Positions 46,658-52,983 of a stretch of DNA of 64,000 nucleotides are shown here, piece by piece. Made by a program: the position numbers and the translations under genes. The DNA is taken from positions 817,001-881,000 of the forward strand of contig NZ_CP121106.1 of NCBI RefSeq assembly GCF_029623755.1, given 5' to 3'. The stretch comes from Altererythrobacter sp. CAU 1644. GTDB taxonomy: Bacteria > Pseudomonadota > Alphaproteobacteria > Sphingomonadales > Sphingomonadaceae. How positions within the stretch are numbered: the stretch's first letter is position 1; every line of letters begins with the position of its first letter. Under the pieces are notes generated by a model. It was not told where the DNA came from. It saw only the letters and a program-made list of their open reading frames with translations, and ran no database searches.

Positions 46658-47731
46658 CTAAAGTGCTGATACCTTCGGCATCGGCACGGCGTTCGTTCTT
46701 TCCGCATCCTCGTGCCGGATGGATATGCGCGTGCCCGGTTCGGCGCCTGATATAGAAACCTTGGCCTGTAGCTGCCGTGCAAGCGCTTCGACGATGCTGG
46801 TCCCAAGGCCGGCGACGGCCTGAGGCTTGTCTCCCACGGGCATCCCGATGCCATTGTCTTCGACTTCCAGCGTCCACCCGCGACCTGTTGTCACGTAGCG
46901 AACGCTTATCGTCCCGCCATGATCGATAGGATAGGCGTGCTTGAGCGCGTTGATAACCAGTTCGGTGACGATCAAACCCAGACTCACTGAATCGGCCGAA
47001 CTCACGCTCTCATCCACGACATCAACGTCGATTGTCAGGATTTCGGGGTCCGCGATCATCGAAATCCCGATGCTCTCGCAAAGCTGCTCCAGATAAGGCA
47101 GCAGTTTGACGTCGTCCGATCCAGACCGCGAAAGCTGCTTCTGGATCGTGGCGATCGAGAGGACGCGGTTCTGCGCCATCTGCAGGTGGTTCCGCGTCTC
47201 GTCATTGCTCACCCGGCGGGCTGATTGCATCAGCACCGAAGCGATGATCTGGAGGCTATTGGCCACCCGGTGCTGGAGTTCCTGCATCAGCATCACGTTG
47301 TTGGCGACCAGGCTCTCCATCTCCCTCCGCGACAGCTCCGCCTCGGTCATATCGACAACCGTCAGGAGCAGGCGGATGTCTTGCGCACCCTGATATTCGA
47401 GCCTGTGCGCCGAAAGCTTGAGAAACCGATCCAAACGGCCCTTTGCCGCAGGCAGCATCATTTCATAATTGTCGATATCGGCTCCGCCCGAACTCGTCGC
47501 ACGCAACAGCGAACGCAAGCGGGCAATATCCCATTCGCCTTCGCCCATGGTAAGAATGGACCTGCCCGGCAGCAATGCGCAGTCCATGCCGAATGCACGG
47601 CAGAACGACAGGCTGGCGGCGATGACCGTGAGGTTCTCATCCAGCATGATCAGCGGGGTATCGGAGTTGACGACCATAGCCTCAGCAAGACTGGTCACGG
47701 GGTCGGCAGCGGGTGTGGGTGGCGGGGCCAT
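46658..47731 (-). CDS. PAS-HisKA_2 sensor histidine kinase
   Basis: A 357-residue soluble sensor kinase. An N-terminal PAS domain covers about residues 20-130. The HisKA_2 dimerisation region has His154 in LQHRVANSLQIIASVL. A HATPase_c domain has VTELVINALKHAYP (N box) and DNGIGMP. There is no membrane segment. HisKA_2 kinases of this form often signal to single-domain or PhyR-type regulators in alphaproteobacteria; no response regulator is adjacent. I looked for EcfG-type promoters (GGAAC with CGTT) nearby and found none convincing. Confidence 0.88.
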   Translation of the reverse strand: MAPPPTPAADPVTSLAEAMVVNSDTPLIMLDENLTVIAASLSFCRAFGMDCALLPGRSILTMGEGEWDIARLRSLLRATSSGGADIDNYEMMLPAAKGRLDRFLKLSAHRLEYQGAQDIRLLLTVVDMTEAELSRREMESLVANNVMLMQELQHRVANSLQIIASVLMQSARRVSNDETRNHLQMAQNRVLSIATIQKQLSRSGSDDVKLLPYLEQLCESIGISMIADPEILTIDVDVVDESVSSADSVSLGLIVTELVINALKHAYPIDHGGTISVRYVTTGRGWTLEVEDNGIGMPVGDKPQAVAGLGTSIVEALARQLQAKVSISGAEPGTRISIRHEDAERTNAVPMPKVSAL

Positions 47732-47931: not shown

Positions 47932-48543
47932 TCAGCCCGTTGCCTTCGCTTGCGGGTCCTGCTCGGCAAGCCCGAACGGTAGGCGGGCCCAGATCCGCTC
48001 GTGAAAGAAATACAGCACCAGCTTGGTGAAGATCTCCAAGCCGCCAATCGAAGCAGCTGTTGCTACGCTCCCGGTGAAGAACCAAGCGAGGGCGAAGGTG
48101 TCTAGCGACGCGATAAAACGCCACAGCCCGGTCTTGATGCTCGTCCGTCTCATCGTCTCGCGATGTCGGTCCTTGCGAAAAACGATACCCCAGCCGGTGA
48201 GCGACCAGGCCCGCTCGTGCAGGAAATAGAGGATGAACTTCGTCACCACCTCGGTGATCGCGATGTATCCCGCCGTCTCCAGGGCATCGCCAGTGGCGAC
48301 AGGCGCTCCAAAGATCGGTCCGAGATAGGTTATCAGGAGGAATGAGAGAAGCAGTGTGTCGATGGTGCCAACCACGCGCCATGAAACAGCCTTGGCGACA
48401 GAGCGCCAGGGCTTGATGGCAGGCCGTTCCGGCGGATCGAGCCGGGGTGTTTCCGGGCCAAAGAAGGGCTTCTCCGGACGTTCTCGCATGGATTGCCGCT
48501 GCGAACCGCGTGTGACCGGATGCCCTGCGCCCGGTTCGCTCAT
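47932..48543 (-). CDS. DUF2061 membrane protein with two repeats
   Basis: A 203-residue protein with two copies of the DUF2061 module: AVSWRVVGTIDTLLLSFLLI followed by TEVVTKFILYFLHERAW, and GLWRFIASLDTFALAWFFTG followed by FTKLVLYFFHERIW. Each carries two membrane helices. ATG at 48543 overlaps the preceding small gene stop (ATGA), which fixes the start; a competing frame on the same strand lacks the conserved motifs. Function unknown; it is coupled to the small-protein cluster. Confidence 0.82.
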   Translation of the reverse strand: MSEPGAGHPVTRGSQRQSMRERPEKPFFGPETPRLDPPERPAIKPWRSVAKAVSWRVVGTIDTLLLSFLLITYLGPIFGAPVATGDALETAGYIAITEVVTKFILYFLHERAWSLTGWGIVFRKDRHRETMRRTSIKTGLWRFIASLDTFALAWFFTGSVATAASIGGLEIFTKLVLYFFHERIWARLPFGLAEQDPQAKATG

Positions 48544-48746
48544 TTTGCCGCTTGGCGGCGCTGCTCTGCCATTGCGTCGTCCAGGTTGGTGTAACGATAC
48601 TGCCCGACCCGGTACTCGTTTGACGTAACCGCGATGATCCCTTCCGGCAGATCGGTCGCAGGTTTCGGCTTGAGGGCACCGCCTTCGCTTTCCCACGCGT
48701 TGGTTCCAACCTGGTTGGGAACGGCTGTGGTTGACTGGTCGCTCAT
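48540..48746 (-). CDS. Small hypothetical protein
   Basis: A 68-residue hydrophilic cytoplasmic protein (MSDQSTTAVPNQ to AEQRRQAAK) with the core NEYRVGQYRYTNLDDAMAEQRR. AAGGA lies 8 nt before the ATG. It is 1 bp downstream of the previous small gene and overlaps the DUF2061 gene by ATGA, so its reality is supported by tight operon packing rather than homology. Function unknown. Confidence 0.72.
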   Translation of the reverse strand: MSDQSTTAVPNQVGTNAWESEGGALKPKPATDLPEGIIAVTSNEYRVGQYRYTNLDDAMAEQRRQAAK

Positions 48747-48747
48747 C

Positions 48748-48951
48748 TCAAATGTCCTTCTCGGCTACTTCGGGCCGTTCGTCCCGCGGCCAGCCAGCGT
48801 TGGGCAGGCCATTCGCCTTGCGCCAATCGGCCATCCGCCTCGCACGGCTGCCGACCAGCTCGGCCTTGGCGCTGCGTTCCTCGGCAGTGCCAGAGCCGTC
48901 GACCTTCATTGCCGCCAACTGGTGATCGAAGAGAAATTTGTTCATCGGCAT
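48748..48951 (-). CDS. Small hypothetical protein
   Basis: A 67-residue charged protein (MPMNKFLFDHQLAAMKVDG) with an Arg/Ala-rich middle (ARRMADWRKANGLPNAGWP). An AGGA lies 8 nt before the ATG. It sits between the cold-shock-like gene (60 bp upstream) and the next small gene (1-bp gap). Predicted mostly helical. Unknown function, but part of a four-gene unit. Confidence 0.68.
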   Translation of the reverse strand: MPMNKFLFDHQLAAMKVDGSGTAEERSAKAELVGSRARRMADWRKANGLPNAGWPRDERPEVAEKDI

Positions 48952-49011: not shown

Positions 49012-49260
49012 TCAGCCCTGCTGCTTGCTGGCCTGTTCCTCCTGGCCGTCACCCTGCTGATGCTGCAGGTTCACGGCACATTCCTTGCCGCCATCGGCCT
49101 GGCTGGTTTCGTAGCTGAAACGCTGATCGACCTTCGGCATCGCAGCTTCCTGCTGCAGGTCCGCCTTCTTGAACCGCAGCGCGTCACCACCTGCTTCAGG
49201 GGTGATCGAGCCGGTGCCCGAGCTGCTGTCATAGTTCTTGATCTTGCCATAATTTGTCAT
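49012..49260 (-). CDS. Divergent cold-shock-domain-like small protein
   Basis: An 82-residue protein whose first 65 residues follow the cold-shock domain layout (YGKIKNYDSSSGTGSITPEAG then DALRFKKADLQ). The aromatic RNA-binding motifs are lost: RNP1 (KGFGFI type) reads SGTGSI and RNP2 (VFVH type) reads ALRF. The C-terminal tail is Gln-rich (NLQHQQGDGQEEQASKQQG). Nucleic-acid binding is therefore doubtful. It opens the small-protein operon and has a distinctive leader shared with another unit. Confidence 0.75.
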   Translation of the reverse strand: MTNYGKIKNYDSSSGTGSITPEAGGDALRFKKADLQQEAAMPKVDQRFSYETSQADGGKECAVNLQHQQGDGQEEQASKQQG

Positions 49261-49385
49261 CTGTCATTCCTTCGAACGAGTGTGCAGCGCGCCAGAATAG
49301 ACCCAGCTGCGACTAAGAGGCGAAACTGAAGGAAAGGGCTTCCGAAGGTGGAAGCAGTGACCGTCGATTGCGACTGGTAGCTGTA
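49261..49385 (-). ncRNA. Leader copy A: structured 5'-UTR candidate of the cold-shock-like operon
   Basis: This region aligns with 50103-50226 over its whole length. Blocks of 26 identical bases (49360-49385), 14 (49319-49332, GGCGAAACTGAAGG on the plus strand) and 11 (CGCGCCAGAAT), plus a conserved GTCATTCCTTC next to the start codon, are shared. Between the first two blocks GCTTCC/GGAAGC forms a 6-bp stem; in copy B a different sequence forms a stem at the same place. The shared part begins where a candidate promoter predicts the transcript start. A cis-acting RNA element is inferred. Confidence 0.6.
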
Positions 49386-49387
49386 CT

Positions 49388-49417
49388 TTAATATGGAGAC
49401 TGGACTGCGCTTTACAA
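49388..49417 (-). promoter_or_regulatory. Candidate promoter of the cold-shock-like operon
   Basis: On the minus strand TTGTAA (49412-49417) and TATTAA (49388-49393) are separated by 18 bp. The predicted start point falls at the edge of the conserved leader block. A TTGCAA box lies at exactly the same distance in leader copy B. Confidence 0.5.
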
Positions 49418-49496
49418 GCCCGGCGGGCCCTTGTGAGCGCCTTATGCGACCGACCGAAAAACAGGCATCTTGAGAAGCCCAGCCCAACGGGGTTGC

Positions 49497-49913
49497 CTAG
49501 TTGTCCGGGGTGTCGCGGAGGTTTGCGGGGTCGGCGGAGGGTCCTGCCCTGACTGCTGCATAATCTTCCTCGGCCTGGCGCATTTCTTCGCTTCCGTTGG
49601 CAACAAGCCGTTCGGCCGCGTCCTTGTCCTGCTGCGCAGCGCGCAGCCGGTCTTCGGCGCTGGCCAGTGCTTCGCGAGCATCGGCCATCTGCGATTGCGC
49701 CCGTTCGATGCTGCGGTCGCTCTTCGAGATGGTCCGCTCACCCTCGGCGACATCCGCCCGGCCGGATGACCATGCATCGCCATATTGATTGATCTGATTT
49801 CCTTGTTGCGAGATTCGCTCGCCGGTATTCATCGGCGCGTTTCCAGTCCCGGCGCAGGCGGCGAGTGCGAGGATTGACGATGCGGCGATTGCCGCGAGAG
49901 GCAGATTTCTCAT
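49497..49913 (-). CDS. Coiled-coil lipoprotein
   Basis: A 138-residue lipoprotein: signal peptide MRNLPLAAIAASSILAL with lipobox LAAC (Cys20), followed by a Gln/Asn-rich linker and a long heptad-like helix (AQSQMADAREALASAEDRLR then AAQQDKDAAERL). Ala- and Glu-rich coiled-coil lipoproteins of this kind are often envelope spacers, but no family is recognised. ATG at 49913 has AAGGA at 7 nt. The second copy of the conserved leader lies about 190 bp upstream, so it is probably the main gene of that unit. Confidence 0.75.
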   Translation of the reverse strand: MRNLPLAAIAASSILALAACAGTGNAPMNTGERISQQGNQINQYGDAWSSGRADVAEGERTISKSDRSIERAQSQMADAREALASAEDRLRAAQQDKDAAERLVANGSEEMRQAEEDYAAVRAGPSADPANLRDTPDN

Positions 49914-50057
49914 TGGGATTTCCTTTGCGTTTGTTGCCGGGTGCCGGAGTTGACGCAGACCGCGGTGCTCAGAAGGCGAACCACCAGAATATTGCTCAGA
50001 GGAACAGCACTGGAAACAGGCCGGCAAAGTAGCTGGGGCCGTCTGAGTGCCGGGCGT

Positions 50058-50102
50058 TCACTTGGTGGCCTGCTGGCATAATGTCTTGCCGAGATGCTGC
50101 AT
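50058..50102 (-). CDS. Possible 14-residue peptide behind leader copy B
   Basis: ATG at 50102 occupies the same place relative to the conserved leader and its GAAGGAATGAC Shine-Dalgarno region as the start codon of the cold-shock-like gene does in copy A. The frame encodes MQHLGKTLCQQATK and stops. It could be a leader peptide, a remnant of a duplicated gene, or chance. Confidence 0.3.
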   Translation of the reverse strand: MQHLGKTLCQQATK

Positions 50103-50226
50103 GGTCATTCCTTCACATGACTCCGCGCGCCAGAATTGGCCGCAGAGCAACTAAAAGGCGAAACTGAAGGGAGTTGGCGTTCTACGAGTGAACGCCTTGA
50201 ACCGTCGATTGCGACTGGTAGCTGTA
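50103..50226 (-). ncRNA. Leader copy B: structured 5'-UTR candidate of the lipoprotein unit
   Basis: Direct repeat of 49261-49385, with 26 identical bases at 50201-50226 and 14 at 50157-50170. The intervening hairpin is GGCGTTC / GAACGCC (7 bp, 7-nt loop), unlike copy A in sequence but alike in position and pairing. This is the pattern of compensatory change expected for a conserved RNA structure. Confidence 0.6.
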
Positions 50227-50228
50227 TC

Positions 50229-50258
50229 CAAGATGGTGTGTGGCGGGGATGGTTGCAA
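50229..50258 (-). promoter_or_regulatory. Candidate promoter of the lipoprotein unit
   Basis: On the minus strand TTGCAA (50253-50258) lies 18 bp before ATCTTG (50229-50234), aligned exactly with the copy A promoter. The -10 is poor, so the -35 match and alignment carry the argument. Confidence 0.35.
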
Positions 50259-50610
50259 CCTGGGTGACGGCTTGCGCGACTTAAACGCGAGGCTCTGAGA
50301 TCGAATCTCGATGGCCGCTTTCCGGATGAGCGGACTGCAAGGTCAAGTTGACCAAGCGACCAAAATCACAAAATGGTGCGGTACAGTGTCAAAGACCGCT
50401 TCCTACTCAATCATAGGCACTGGATCAGACGTAATCGCGGCTTGCAAGCGGCCCTTCGGCTCTCAGGCTCTTGGGCGCCGGTCTCGAATGTCCAAAATTA
50501 GGGCGCATTTCCGCCATTCAGCATCCAACAAAATGAGAATGGTCGAATGCTGGTAGAAAGAACTCGACTAGTGCGGACATTCGAGCATCCATGGCTGTCA
50601 GGAGAATGTG
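50259..50610. other. Intergenic region without supported gene
   Basis: Between leader copy B and the DUF2924 gene. Short open frames occur on both strands, but none has protein-like composition together with a ribosome-binding site. The end of the region holds the GGAG of the DUF2924 gene (50601-50604). The left boundary of the recombinase module probably lies here; I saw no obvious repeat marking it. Confidence 0.5.
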
Positions 50611-51063
50611 ATGACGGTGGATGCAAAGATCGAAACGCTCGAGAGAATGACGCCTGCCGAGCTCCATCAAGAGTGGCGCAGGACTTTTGGATCTGCTGCA
50701 CCGCCCGCCTTTGGGTTGGCCCTCATGACCCGAGCACTTGCTGCAAAGTACCAAGAAAAAGAGCAAGGCAAGCTCACCAAAGCTGAATTGAGACAAATGT
50801 CCTCATTAGGTCGCAAGGACGAGCGCCGCAAAGAAGGTCGAGTCTCCACGCAAGCTAAACCAGGGACATGGCTCTCACGGACCTGGCATGGCGATGTGCA
50901 TGAGGTGATCGTGCTCGAAAGCGGCTTCGAGTATCGCGGCAAGACGTTTGGCTCGCTCAGTGCAGTGGCGCAGTACATAACCGGTGCCAAGTGGTCCGGT
51001 CCGCGCTTCTTTGGTCTTGCCAGTCCGCGCCTTGGCGAACTGAAGATCGCCGCCAATGGCTAG
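50611..51063 (+). CDS. DUF2924 domain protein
   Basis: A 150-residue basic protein of the DUF2924 family, recognised by PAELHQEWRRTFG at the start and the C-terminal VLESGFEYRGKTFGSLSAVA then ITGAKWSGPRFFGL, a small beta-rich module. Such proteins are regularly encoded directly before large serine recombinases in alphaproteobacterial mobile elements, and here it overlaps the recombinase gene by 8 bp. A role as accessory DNA-binding factor is inferred from that linkage. ATG at 50611 has GGAG at 6 nt. Confidence 0.85.
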   Translation: MTVDAKIETLERMTPAELHQEWRRTFGSAAPPAFGLALMTRALAAKYQEKEQGKLTKAELRQMSSLGRKDERRKEGRVSTQAKPGTWLSRTWHGDVHEVIVLESGFEYRGKTFGSLSAVAQYITGAKWSGPRFFGLASPRLGELKIAANG

Positions 51064-52723
51064 CCGCGAGAAGCAAATGCGCTGCGCCATTTATACGCGC
51101 AAGTCGACCGATGAGGGCTTGGACAAGGAATTCAATAGCCTTGATGCCCAGCGCGAAGCGTGTGCAGCCTATGTCATGAGCCAACAGCATGAGGGTTGGA
51201 CGCTTATCCCTGATCTCTACGACGATGGGGGCCACTCGGGCGGCACCTTGGAGCGCCCTGCACTTAAACAGCTCTTAGCCGATGTTGAGAACGGCAAGGT
51301 GGATGTGGTCGTCGTCTATAAGATCGATCGTTTAACGCGGAGCCTGGCGGACTTTGCCAAGATCGTAGATGTACTGGACGAGGCTGAAGCTTCATTCGTG
51401 AGCGTGACTCAGGCCTTCTCTACAACTAGTTCAATGGGCCGGTTGACCCTGAATGTGCTGCTTTCCTTTGCACAGTTTGAACGCGAGGTCGGAGCGGAGC
51501 GCATTCGGGACAAGATCGCGGCATCCAAGGCGAAAGGCATGTGGATGGGAGGCGGTTTGCCGCTTGGCTACGACGCTGTTGAGCGCAAGCTCGTTCCCCT
51601 TCCTGAGGAGGCCGAGACTGTCCGAATAATCATGCAGCGCTATCTCAAGTCGAGCTCAATCAGATCACTTGTGCAGGAGCTGGAGCGCGACGGCTTTGTC
51701 AGCAAAAGGCGCGTGTCAAAGAAAGGAAACGTATCAGGCGGCTTGCCCTTCAGGCGCGGCGCACTCAAATGGCTCTTATCCAACCCGATCTATGTCGGAA
51801 AGATCAGGCACAAGGATAAAGTCTATCCCGGTCTGCACGAGGCGATTATTGATCGTGAGTTGTTCGATGCTGTCCAGGAAAAACTGAAAGCAAACACAAC
51901 ATCAGATGGTAAAGCGGGATCGCATCGAAGGGTATCACTGCTGGCCGGCATGATCCGAGATGATCGCGGTAGACCCATGTCGCCCACTCACACGCAGAAC
52001 CATGGTAGACGCTACACTTACTACGCTTCCAACCTCAACGATGATCCAGGCGCGCCAGCATTAAGATTACCTGCTGGCGAAATCGAACAGTCAGTTCGTA
52101 GCGCAGTGGCCCAATGGCTGAATGACCAACCCAACCTGCAAAAGCTGGCCGAAGGTCAACCAGCAGACAGGAAGCAGTCGATCTTTGAGAAGGCCGGTGA
52201 GCTGTCTGTTGACATCCAAAGCGCACCAAACGGAGAAGCACGCGCTGATCTAAGGAAGCTGAAGCTCAAAATATCAGTCAGCGATAAACGCATCAAAGGC
52301 ACCTTTAGCCCTAGCGAGGCACTGGACCTTGAGGATGAAGAGCATGCAGAGCGAACCGTAGCTCAGTTTGCTGTCCCGATTGATCGCCAGACTTATGGCC
52401 ACGAACCGCGTCTGCGATTGGTCCCTACCCTCCAAGACAAGGTCGAACGAGACCAACGCATGGTGGAGCTACTTGGCCGGGCCTTTCAAGCCCGCGATGC
52501 TCTGCTCGCGATGAGTGAATCCGAGACGAAGTCGATGAAGACCACCCGGCTCAGGCATCTCCAGCGGCTAGCAAGACTGAGTTACCTCGACCCTAGCATC
52601 GTGCGCGGTATCCTGCATGGAACGCAGCCTAAGAAAATCAGCGCACGCAGCCTGTGGCGCATGGGAGATCTCCCATTGCGCTGGGCAGACCAGCGAAGGG
52701 CCCTGAGCTTCGATCCTTCCTAA
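51056..52723 (+). CDS. Large serine recombinase
   Basis: A 555-residue site-specific recombinase. The N-terminal resolvase domain starts with the catalytic Ser17 in IYTRKSTDEG. VVVYKIDRLTRSLADF and LLSFAQFEREVGAERIRDKI give the conserved Arg/Asp residues and helix E. A recombinase domain follows (about 175-280, GLPLGYD then PIYVGKIRHKDKVYPGLH). The middle lacks the Cys4 zinc ribbon of many large serine integrases. The C-terminal segment is charged. It is paired with DUF2924 and lies 185 bp from the 3' end of tRNA-Lys, suggesting an integration module, now short on cargo. Confidence 0.9.
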   Translation: MASREKQMRCAIYTRKSTDEGLDKEFNSLDAQREACAAYVMSQQHEGWTLIPDLYDDGGHSGGTLERPALKQLLADVENGKVDVVVVYKIDRLTRSLADFAKIVDVLDEAEASFVSVTQAFSTTSSMGRLTLNVLLSFAQFEREVGAERIRDKIAASKAKGMWMGGGLPLGYDAVERKLVPLPEEAETVRIIMQRYLKSSSIRSLVQELERDGFVSKRRVSKKGNVSGGLPFRRGALKWLLSNPIYVGKIRHKDKVYPGLHEAIIDRELFDAVQEKLKANTTSDGKAGSHRRVSLLAGMIRDDRGRPMSPTHTQNHGRRYTYYASNLNDDPGAPALRLPAGEIEQSVRSAVAQWLNDQPNLQKLAEGQPADRKQSIFEKAGELSVDIQSAPNGEARADLRKLKLKISVSDKRIKGTFSPSEALDLEDEEHAERTVAQFAVPIDRQTYGHEPRLRLVPTLQDKVERDQRMVELLGRAFQARDALLAMSESETKSMKTTRLRHLQRLARLSYLDPSIVRGILHGTQPKKISARSLWRMGDLPLRWADQRRALSFDPS

Positions 52724-52907
52724 ATCAAAGCAGTAGGTCACTAAATCGAGCGCGGAGAACTTAGCTCGTTCTCGCCTCGAATGAGTTGGTCAGCGGGTCT
52801 CCGCTTCCAGCCCTATTCGTATCCAACCCAGCAAAGCCCCGGAATTGCGGGCACAATCTGGACCGAACCAGATGTCCAAACAGGACACGGAGCTTTAAGG
52901 AGAATGG

Positions 52908-52983
52908 TGGTGAGCCCTGCTGGGCTCGAACCAGCGACCTACTGATTAAAAGTCAGTTGCTCTACCGACTGAGCTAAGGGCCC
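52908..52983 (-). tRNA. tRNA-Lys (anticodon TTT)
   Basis: A 76-nt cloverleaf on the minus strand: acceptor GGGCCCT pairs with AGGGCTC (one G-U), D stem GCTC/GAGC, anticodon stem ACTGA/TCAGT with loop CTTTTAA and anticodon TTT at 52948-52950, T stem GCTGG/CCAGC with loop TTCGAGC. Discriminator A and an encoded CCA are present. The 3' end faces the serine recombinase. Confidence 0.95.

Follow-up and report, generated by a model that had tools for sequence, protein, structure and literature searches.

The window analyzed here is a 64,000-nucleotide stretch of the Altererythrobacter sp. CAU 1644 genome, C1:817001-881000. On its minus strand lie two related leader regions, A (49259..49381) and B (50100..50222). 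The distance from the first base of one to that of the other is 841 bp, as an earlier note on this DNA had recorded. The 26-base block of identity that it described is present as stated (TACAGCTACCAGTCGCAATCGACGGT), and so is the shared GAAGGAATGAC of 11 identical bases; the two other blocks, given as 14 and 11 bases, proved to be 15 and 12 bases long when the sequences were aligned. In a search of the whole genome with A as the query, B was recovered with an E-value of 4.3e-16 and three further copies with E-values of 3.5e-47, 8.4e-23, and 4.1e-13, so the likeness of A and B is not due to chance. The observation is real, and larger than first described: the genome contains five leader copies, A to E. 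A covariance model built from 17 copies (R1), A and B included, scored A at 127.8 bits and B at 103.4 bits. Near 0.47 Mb, C and D lie at a distance of 266 bp from each other, and E is found near 2.26 Mb; C and E are upstream of paralogous cold-shock-like operons, and D has no good Shine-Dalgarno sequence. For L054, the canonical csp gene of the host, a fuzzy pattern showed no clear leader copy, and none is among the five R1 matches in the genome. Leaders in tandem, at distances of ~190-270 bp, occur at L006:822-1227, at L013:1507-1820, and in L081 with L056; in these pairs the upstream leader precedes its own short ORF.

Copy A stands ahead of a cold-shock-like operon, as the note had proposed. 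Its first gene encodes an 82-residue divergent cold-shock-domain protein (49012..49260, minus strand), assigned by a profile match and an AlphaFold model, and is followed by two small operon partners on the same strand, of 67 residues (MPMNKFLFDHQ..., 48748..48951) and 68 residues (WESEGG, 48540..48746). The 67-residue partner is 68% identical to the second gene of the copy C operon, and a distant relative of it is encoded directly under a leader in L085 (29% identity, E 8e-9). The 68-residue partner has no NCBIfam match; similar ORFs were seen by eye behind C and E. The proposed link between copy B and a lipoprotein is supported by a relative. In L073, a leader lies directly before the gene for a lipoprotein that is 56% identical to the 138-residue predicted lipoprotein downstream of B (49497..49913, minus strand; N-terminus judged by eye). 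In the window, however, a 14-codon ORF (MQHLGKTLCQQATK, 50058..50102, minus strand) comes first after B, and the lipoprotein gene begins ~190 bases beyond it with a Shine-Dalgarno sequence of its own. By eye, the 14-codon ORF is perhaps the remnant of a cold-shock-like gene. The relatives in L073 and L085 suggest that the leader serves a regulon rather than a single gene. Also on the minus strand, downstream of the cold-shock-like operon, lie genes for an HWE/HisKA_2-type histidine kinase (46658-47731), of a type known from general stress signalling, and for a DUF2061 membrane protein (47932-48543). On the other side, a DUF2924 ORF and a large serine recombinase gene beside a tRNA (52911-52983) abut the leader region, and the stretch they occupy (50608-52983) is probably an integrated module.

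How widespread is the element? The note had called for a covariance-model search of related genomes, and such models do find further copies, with the pairing kept, upstream of genes in relatives. At the DNA level, a search gave matches in 9 of 61 relatives, and all nine belong to the window's own genus. R1 matched 31 of 249 genomes of the window's family (21 of 96 genera), leaving 218 with no match under strict filters; because of these filters, and because 14 candidates were scored per genome, 31 is probably an undercount. A second model, R2, built from 46 copies, gave matches in 100 of the 346 genomes searched in the order (15 of 83 genera), all of them within the same family, and 3 of 337 genomes of the class, again all three in that family; outside it, the 337 class genomes gave no R2 match. 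The order-wide search added 80 loci to the copy set, its weakest matches being left out. The collection comprised 146 copies, 142 of them distinct. An exact-pattern scan of named genomes returned 66 stretches from Erythrobacter, Qipengyuania, Altererythrobacter, Aurantiacibacter, Croceicoccus, Tsuneonella, Parerythrobacter, Citromicrobium, Novosphingobium, Sphingomonas, Sphingopyxis, and Blastomonas, with some records named to family or class only. An exact-pattern match in a Rhodocyclaceae MAG (L193) has no recognisable leader, and no block 2 in the ~80 bases behind it. Plasmids gave no match to the leader. Spread by viruses was considered on account of one viral contig; its copy is by eye the same as that of the bacterial locus L033, and the contig is probably host DNA.

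The genes that follow the leaders are mostly of one kind. Among the 142 copies, the first gene encodes a canonical cold-shock-domain protein in 53, a cold-shock-like protein in 71, and something other, as classified by a regular expression, in 18, with the caveat that the start-codon score favours cold-shock-like ORFs and the counts lean that way. By eye, four of the 18 are cold-shock-like as well (L084, L103, L107, and L143), and the remaining 14 copies stand before other or decayed ORFs. In the exact-pattern set, whose copies are partly shared with the 142, 60 of 68 lie directly before a cold-shock-domain gene or one like it; of the other eight, three are too near a sequence end (L193, L203, and L217), one is cold-shock-like by eye (L184), and four precede other genes. 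Thus, with 53 canonical and 71 cold-shock-like genes behind 142 copies, this is a leader before cold-shock-domain genes, as is the E. coli cspA thermoregulator (RF01766).

The divergent proteins resemble the canonical ones at the level of profile and fold. A profile of 75 divergent sequences, including the four identified by eye and added by hand, matched the canonical cold-shock-domain family with 99.0% probability (E 5.2e-18), compared with at most 0.5% for five column-shuffled controls. The AlphaFold model of the 82-residue protein (pLDDT 82) has CspA (2l15), human CRHSP-24, and CspA (1mjc) as its best PDB matches, and the Pfam cold-shock domain gave no match to this protein even at E 10. 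Canonical proteins carry KGYGFI and AFVHI, positions that we take to be the RNP motifs, where the divergent ones have sequences like KGTGTI and ALPF. Judging from these residues, the RNA binding of the divergent proteins may differ.

Each leader is predicted to form three hairpins. In copy A, hairpin 1 (ACC-A-GUCG/CGAC-GGU, 49360..49378, minus strand, as are all that follow) appears in the centroid fold and is nearly invariant in sequence; hairpin 2 (GCTTCC/GGAAGC, 49338..49355) is conserved in shape and free in sequence; and hairpin 3 (GCAGC/GCTGC, 49284..49310) has double changes and contains the top covarying columns. The corresponding hairpins in the fold of copy B are at 50201..50219, 50176..50196 (GGCGTTC/GAACGCC), and 50121..50147 (CTCTGCG/CGCGGAG, the same stem as in A made of other bases). 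The two inverted repeats that the note had pointed to between the first two blocks of A and B, namely hairpin 2 of each, do both fold as hairpins. When 46 copies were aligned to R1, 86.7% of the cells paired. Helix 1 was paired in 96.5% of cells and had no double changes, while double changes occurred in 6 of 6 pairs of helix 2 and in 5 of 5 pairs of helix 3 (2 of 3 in its inner part). The covariation score was 0.309, as compared with 0.153 in shuffles (0 of 500 reached the real value) and 0.05-0.10 in slid versions. Since this alignment was fitted to the structure, we repeated the test on a structure-free MAFFT alignment of the 142 copies. Column pairs of hairpin 3 ranked first (77-92), second (76-93), fourth (79-90), and fifth (80-89), those of hairpin 2 (27-42 and 30-39) came somewhat below, and several pairs outside the helices also ranked high, including 59-65 in third place.

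In the 139 copies whose start codon is at position 105 or later, hairpin 2 segments folded with a mean of -6.5 kcal/mol (shuffled, -2.8) and formed at least 5 pairs in 129 copies, versus 45% of shuffles, and hairpin 3 segments reached -15.6 kcal/mol (shuffled, -10.9). When single whole sequences were folded, only B (z -3.2) and D (z -2.5) had an unusual energy, the values for A (-1.0), C (-1.2), and E (-1.8) being modest; the argument for structure therefore comes from comparison and not from stability. Hairpins 2 and 3 covary in copies from across the family, and as read from the alignments they are kept by compensatory change, which bears out the structured 5' leader proposed earlier. That the element is a structured cis-acting RNA we regard as practically certain. 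Hairpin 2 is nearly fixed in leaders of canonical csp genes (GGCGCTTTGCGG; part of L041-L052 and of L100-L160), in contrast to its free sequence in the cold-shock-like class, and may there have gained a sequence-specific role. A candidate pseudoknot would join 5' GCU(A) to (U)AGC beyond block 2. Only 12 of the 142 copies begin with four bases other than GCTA; TAGT stands opposite ACTA in both copies that have it, and the TCTA copy does not fit.

What might this structure do? Within block 2 is a CCUUC strand that can pair with the GAAGGA ahead of the start codon, and hairpin 3 caps the resulting stem. In copy A these strands are TTCCTTC (49328..49334, minus strand) and the Shine-Dalgarno sequence GAAGGAA (49267..49273, minus strand), before the start codon at 49260. 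If the two strands evolve together, each should pair better with its own partner than with that of another leader. In 98 representatives below 80% identity, the anti-Shine-Dalgarno strand paired with its own Shine-Dalgarno sequence at -10.96 kcal/mol and with swapped ones at -9.53 (z -7.8; none of 5000 permutations did as well); for the two halves of hairpin 3 the value was z -9.6, and eight control segment pairs gave z from -2.0 to +2.3. The result for the two strands also holds inside each gene class (139 leaders). In 119 leaders, with the genes classed as other and the copies that lack a clear Shine-Dalgarno sequence left out, the Shine-Dalgarno sequence is predicted to be 10% free, as opposed to 30% behind shuffled leaders; 81% of it is predicted to pair with the anti-Shine-Dalgarno window, and in 84% of leaders more than one half does so. 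Evidence on the other side comes from single folds. The minimum-energy fold of A places the Shine-Dalgarno sequence in a small local hairpin and pairs block 1 with block 2, the anti-Shine-Dalgarno stem being visible only in the centroid fold, and that of B pairs its Shine-Dalgarno sequence (TGAAGGAA, 50108..50115, minus strand) with a neighbouring CCUUU, not with CCUUC. A conserved anti-Shine-Dalgarno strand that co-evolves with its target is nonetheless present, as in a translational leader of the sequestering type. Sequestration of the Shine-Dalgarno sequence is thus very likely, and by comparison it is well supported that translation would be off by default.

The TTGNAA boxes noted earlier (TTGTAA in A and TTGCAA in B, each 26 bases before the first block) align, and belong to a promoter-like pair, CTTGnAA and CCCATnT, that is conserved upstream of leaders across the family. 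In copy A the pair reads CTTGTAA - 14 - TCCATAT (49391..49418, minus strand), which is heat-shock-sigma-like and one mismatch from CTTGNAA-N14-CCCATNT; in copy B, alignment places TTGCAA ... CCATCT at 50231..50258 (minus strand). All five positions of the -10 part, with a shift of at most 2 bases, are found in 89 of 142 copies, as against 1.1% of shuffles and 2 of the 142 neighbouring windows. Four or more are found in 124 of 142 (15% and 14 of 142), and TTG in 112 of 142 (17% and 16 of 142). These positions agree with those of RpoHI and RpoHII promoters of R. sphaeroides as they are described in PMC3441632, with TTG near -35, A at -12, T at -11 and -9, and C near -14, and would put the transcription start at the first leader base; in copy A, C,C at -14/-13 is obtained only with a shift. 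The exact pair occurs twice in the genome, once at copy E, and with one mismatch at spacing 14 it occurs eight times, once at copy A, versus once for a reversed control. By eye, one groES copy of the host genome has CCCCATTT upstream. On these sequence grounds, an RpoH-type promoter is somewhat favoured.

Leaders of csp genes are known as a kind, from E. coli, from A. tumefaciens (PMC3738593), and from Caulobacter (cited in PMC8552747), as far as those accounts describe them. The E. coli cspA thermoregulator (RF01766) is likewise the 5' leader of a cold-shock-domain gene, one in which structure governs ribosome access, as is proposed here. It differs in sequence and layout from the present leader of ~120 nt with its anti-Shine-Dalgarno stem, which has a promoter of another type and also serves non-csp genes. 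RF01766 has no match in the window or the host genome, and gave sub-threshold matches at 2 of 12 loci from relatives (28.4 and 22.3 bits, cut-off 78). In A. tumefaciens, the csp 5' UTR C1_109596F, of 227 nt, was named an RNA thermosensor by Rfam similarity (PMC3738593), and a role of the UTR of Caulobacter cspA and cspB is cited in PMC8552747. Both are described as 5' UTRs of csp genes from the same class; the longer A. tumefaciens leader and the confinement of R2 matches among 337 class genomes to one family set them apart from ours, as far as their descriptions go. Rfam 15 has no leader match in the window at the gathering score, nor a relevant one at relaxed thresholds in 49200-50300 or at relatives' loci, and the element was not found in searches of open-licence PMC papers. 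We call it an RNA restricted to one family, whose functional kind is known but whose sequence and layout are its own. As a structured RNA family that is well supported, has no match in Rfam 15, and occurs in a widespread bacterial family, it offers a compact system for studying the gating of csp messages outside E. coli.

The best explanation of the whole, which we consider probable, is a cis-acting 5' leader RNA that holds translation off in a stress or cold-shock regulon; the interpretation in the earlier note is partly supported. The leader, of ~120 nt, would be common to cold-shock-domain genes and some small operon partners in one alphaproteobacterial family. Transcription would begin at an RpoH-type promoter, at or near the first leader base. 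By default, CCUUC would pair with the Shine-Dalgarno sequence and hold translation off, hairpin 1 would be the part that is recognised, and the block would be lifted under stress, most likely with the aid of a cold-shock protein that acts on the mRNA encoding it, or through another cold-dependent step. E. coli CspA is described as stimulating, in the cold, the translation of the mRNA from which it is made (PMC9947658), and a complex of CspB with GUCUUUA is described under 3pf4. CspB-like words after hairpin 1 are present in 24 of 53 canonical leaders but in 0 of 71 cold-shock-like ones, so no general binding site for the protein was found. Relief by a cold-shock protein or by cold is a tentative proposal, to which we give slightly less than an even chance; as the opening signal we rank it ahead of another trans-acting factor, and that ahead of heat. 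If this reading is correct, canonical Csp, divergent Csp-like proteins, and a lipoprotein would be tied into one putative post-transcriptional regulon, and a heat-shock-type promoter before cold-shock genes is a surprise that can be tested. More speculatively, the leader could represent a new class of RNA regulator, a two-key stress switch, in which a heat-shock-type sigma factor makes the message, a portable, family-specific leader silences it until a cold-shock-domain protein or cold frees the Shine-Dalgarno sequence, and hairpin 1 is a dedicated recognition site reused for each regulon member. We regard this version as doubtful; were it true, the regulon would comprise canonical Csp, divergent Csp-like proteins with altered RNA-binding motifs, the lipoprotein, and the small partners.

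Other ways of opening the leader have to be weighed. The one that survives best, though we think it unlikely, is a cold thermoswitch that works without a protein, as in the E. coli cspA leader: in the cold, another strand would take the anti-Shine-Dalgarno strand and so free the Shine-Dalgarno sequence. The cold-shock genes downstream are consistent with it, and so is the minimum-energy fold of A, where block 1 pairs with block 2, the holder of the anti-Shine-Dalgarno strand. As a general feature, however, this long-range pairing was rejected: blocks 1 and 2 of the same leader pair no better than swapped ones, and even slightly worse (a comparison of little power for such highly conserved blocks), and in 93 leaders with a clear TAG and Shine-Dalgarno sequence, folded in a scheme free of pseudoknots and kinetics, the pairing has a mean predicted probability of 0.02-0.09 between 45 and 10 C. 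Likewise, pseudoknot-free predictions show no refolding that would expose the Shine-Dalgarno sequence in the cold. A trans factor of another kind, such as a ligand (making the leader a riboswitch), a small RNA, Hfq, or a ribosomal protein on hairpin 1, is a shade less likely again. It would account for a hairpin 1 that is nearly invariant over 142 copies beside a hairpin 2 of free sequence, but we saw no gene type linked to a ligand, and the downstream genes encode proteins of RNA-binding type.

Opening by heat is improbable. ROSE thermometers are chains of hairpins, the last of which hides the Shine-Dalgarno sequence, and the leader resembles them in this layout and in its RpoH-like promoter pair. 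Unlike a heat-opened thermometer, it precedes cold-shock-like genes, and neither ROSE nor fourU has an Rfam match in the window, or at relaxed thresholds in 49200-50300. Moreover, the predicted exposure of the Shine-Dalgarno sequence in the 119 leaders is 0.12, 0.11, 0.10, 0.10, 0.10, 0.11, and 0.15 at 5, 15, 25, 37, 45, 55, and 65 C; with closure almost constant over this range, the predictions give no support to simple melting, and the stem is predicted to stay unmelted below 65 C, through the physiological range. A transcription attenuator, with hairpin 2 or 3 as the terminator, is very improbable: hairpin 2 of A and its tail are listed as terminator-like, but two such sites against 2.4 expected in shuffles is chance level, and the tail (CCTTTCCTTC) has no T run. 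Scarcely credible is a merely mobile or duplicated DNA repeat or recombination site, as the recombinase gene nearby (51056-52723, plus strand) and the tandem leader copies might suggest, given that diverged segments keep their pairing, the same gene class follows the leader across genera, and plasmids gave no match.

Another noncoding stretch, TGCATCTGC...ATGCGACCCGAGAGA followed by a GC hairpin and a run of T, has two copies in the genome, at L006:1985-2125 and at C1:2256639-2256761 (outside the window), and no Rfam match above the gathering score. It lies behind the cold-shock-like operons of copies C and E and is followed by a small ORF, MNRxSxFVMLHRTDGSGV.
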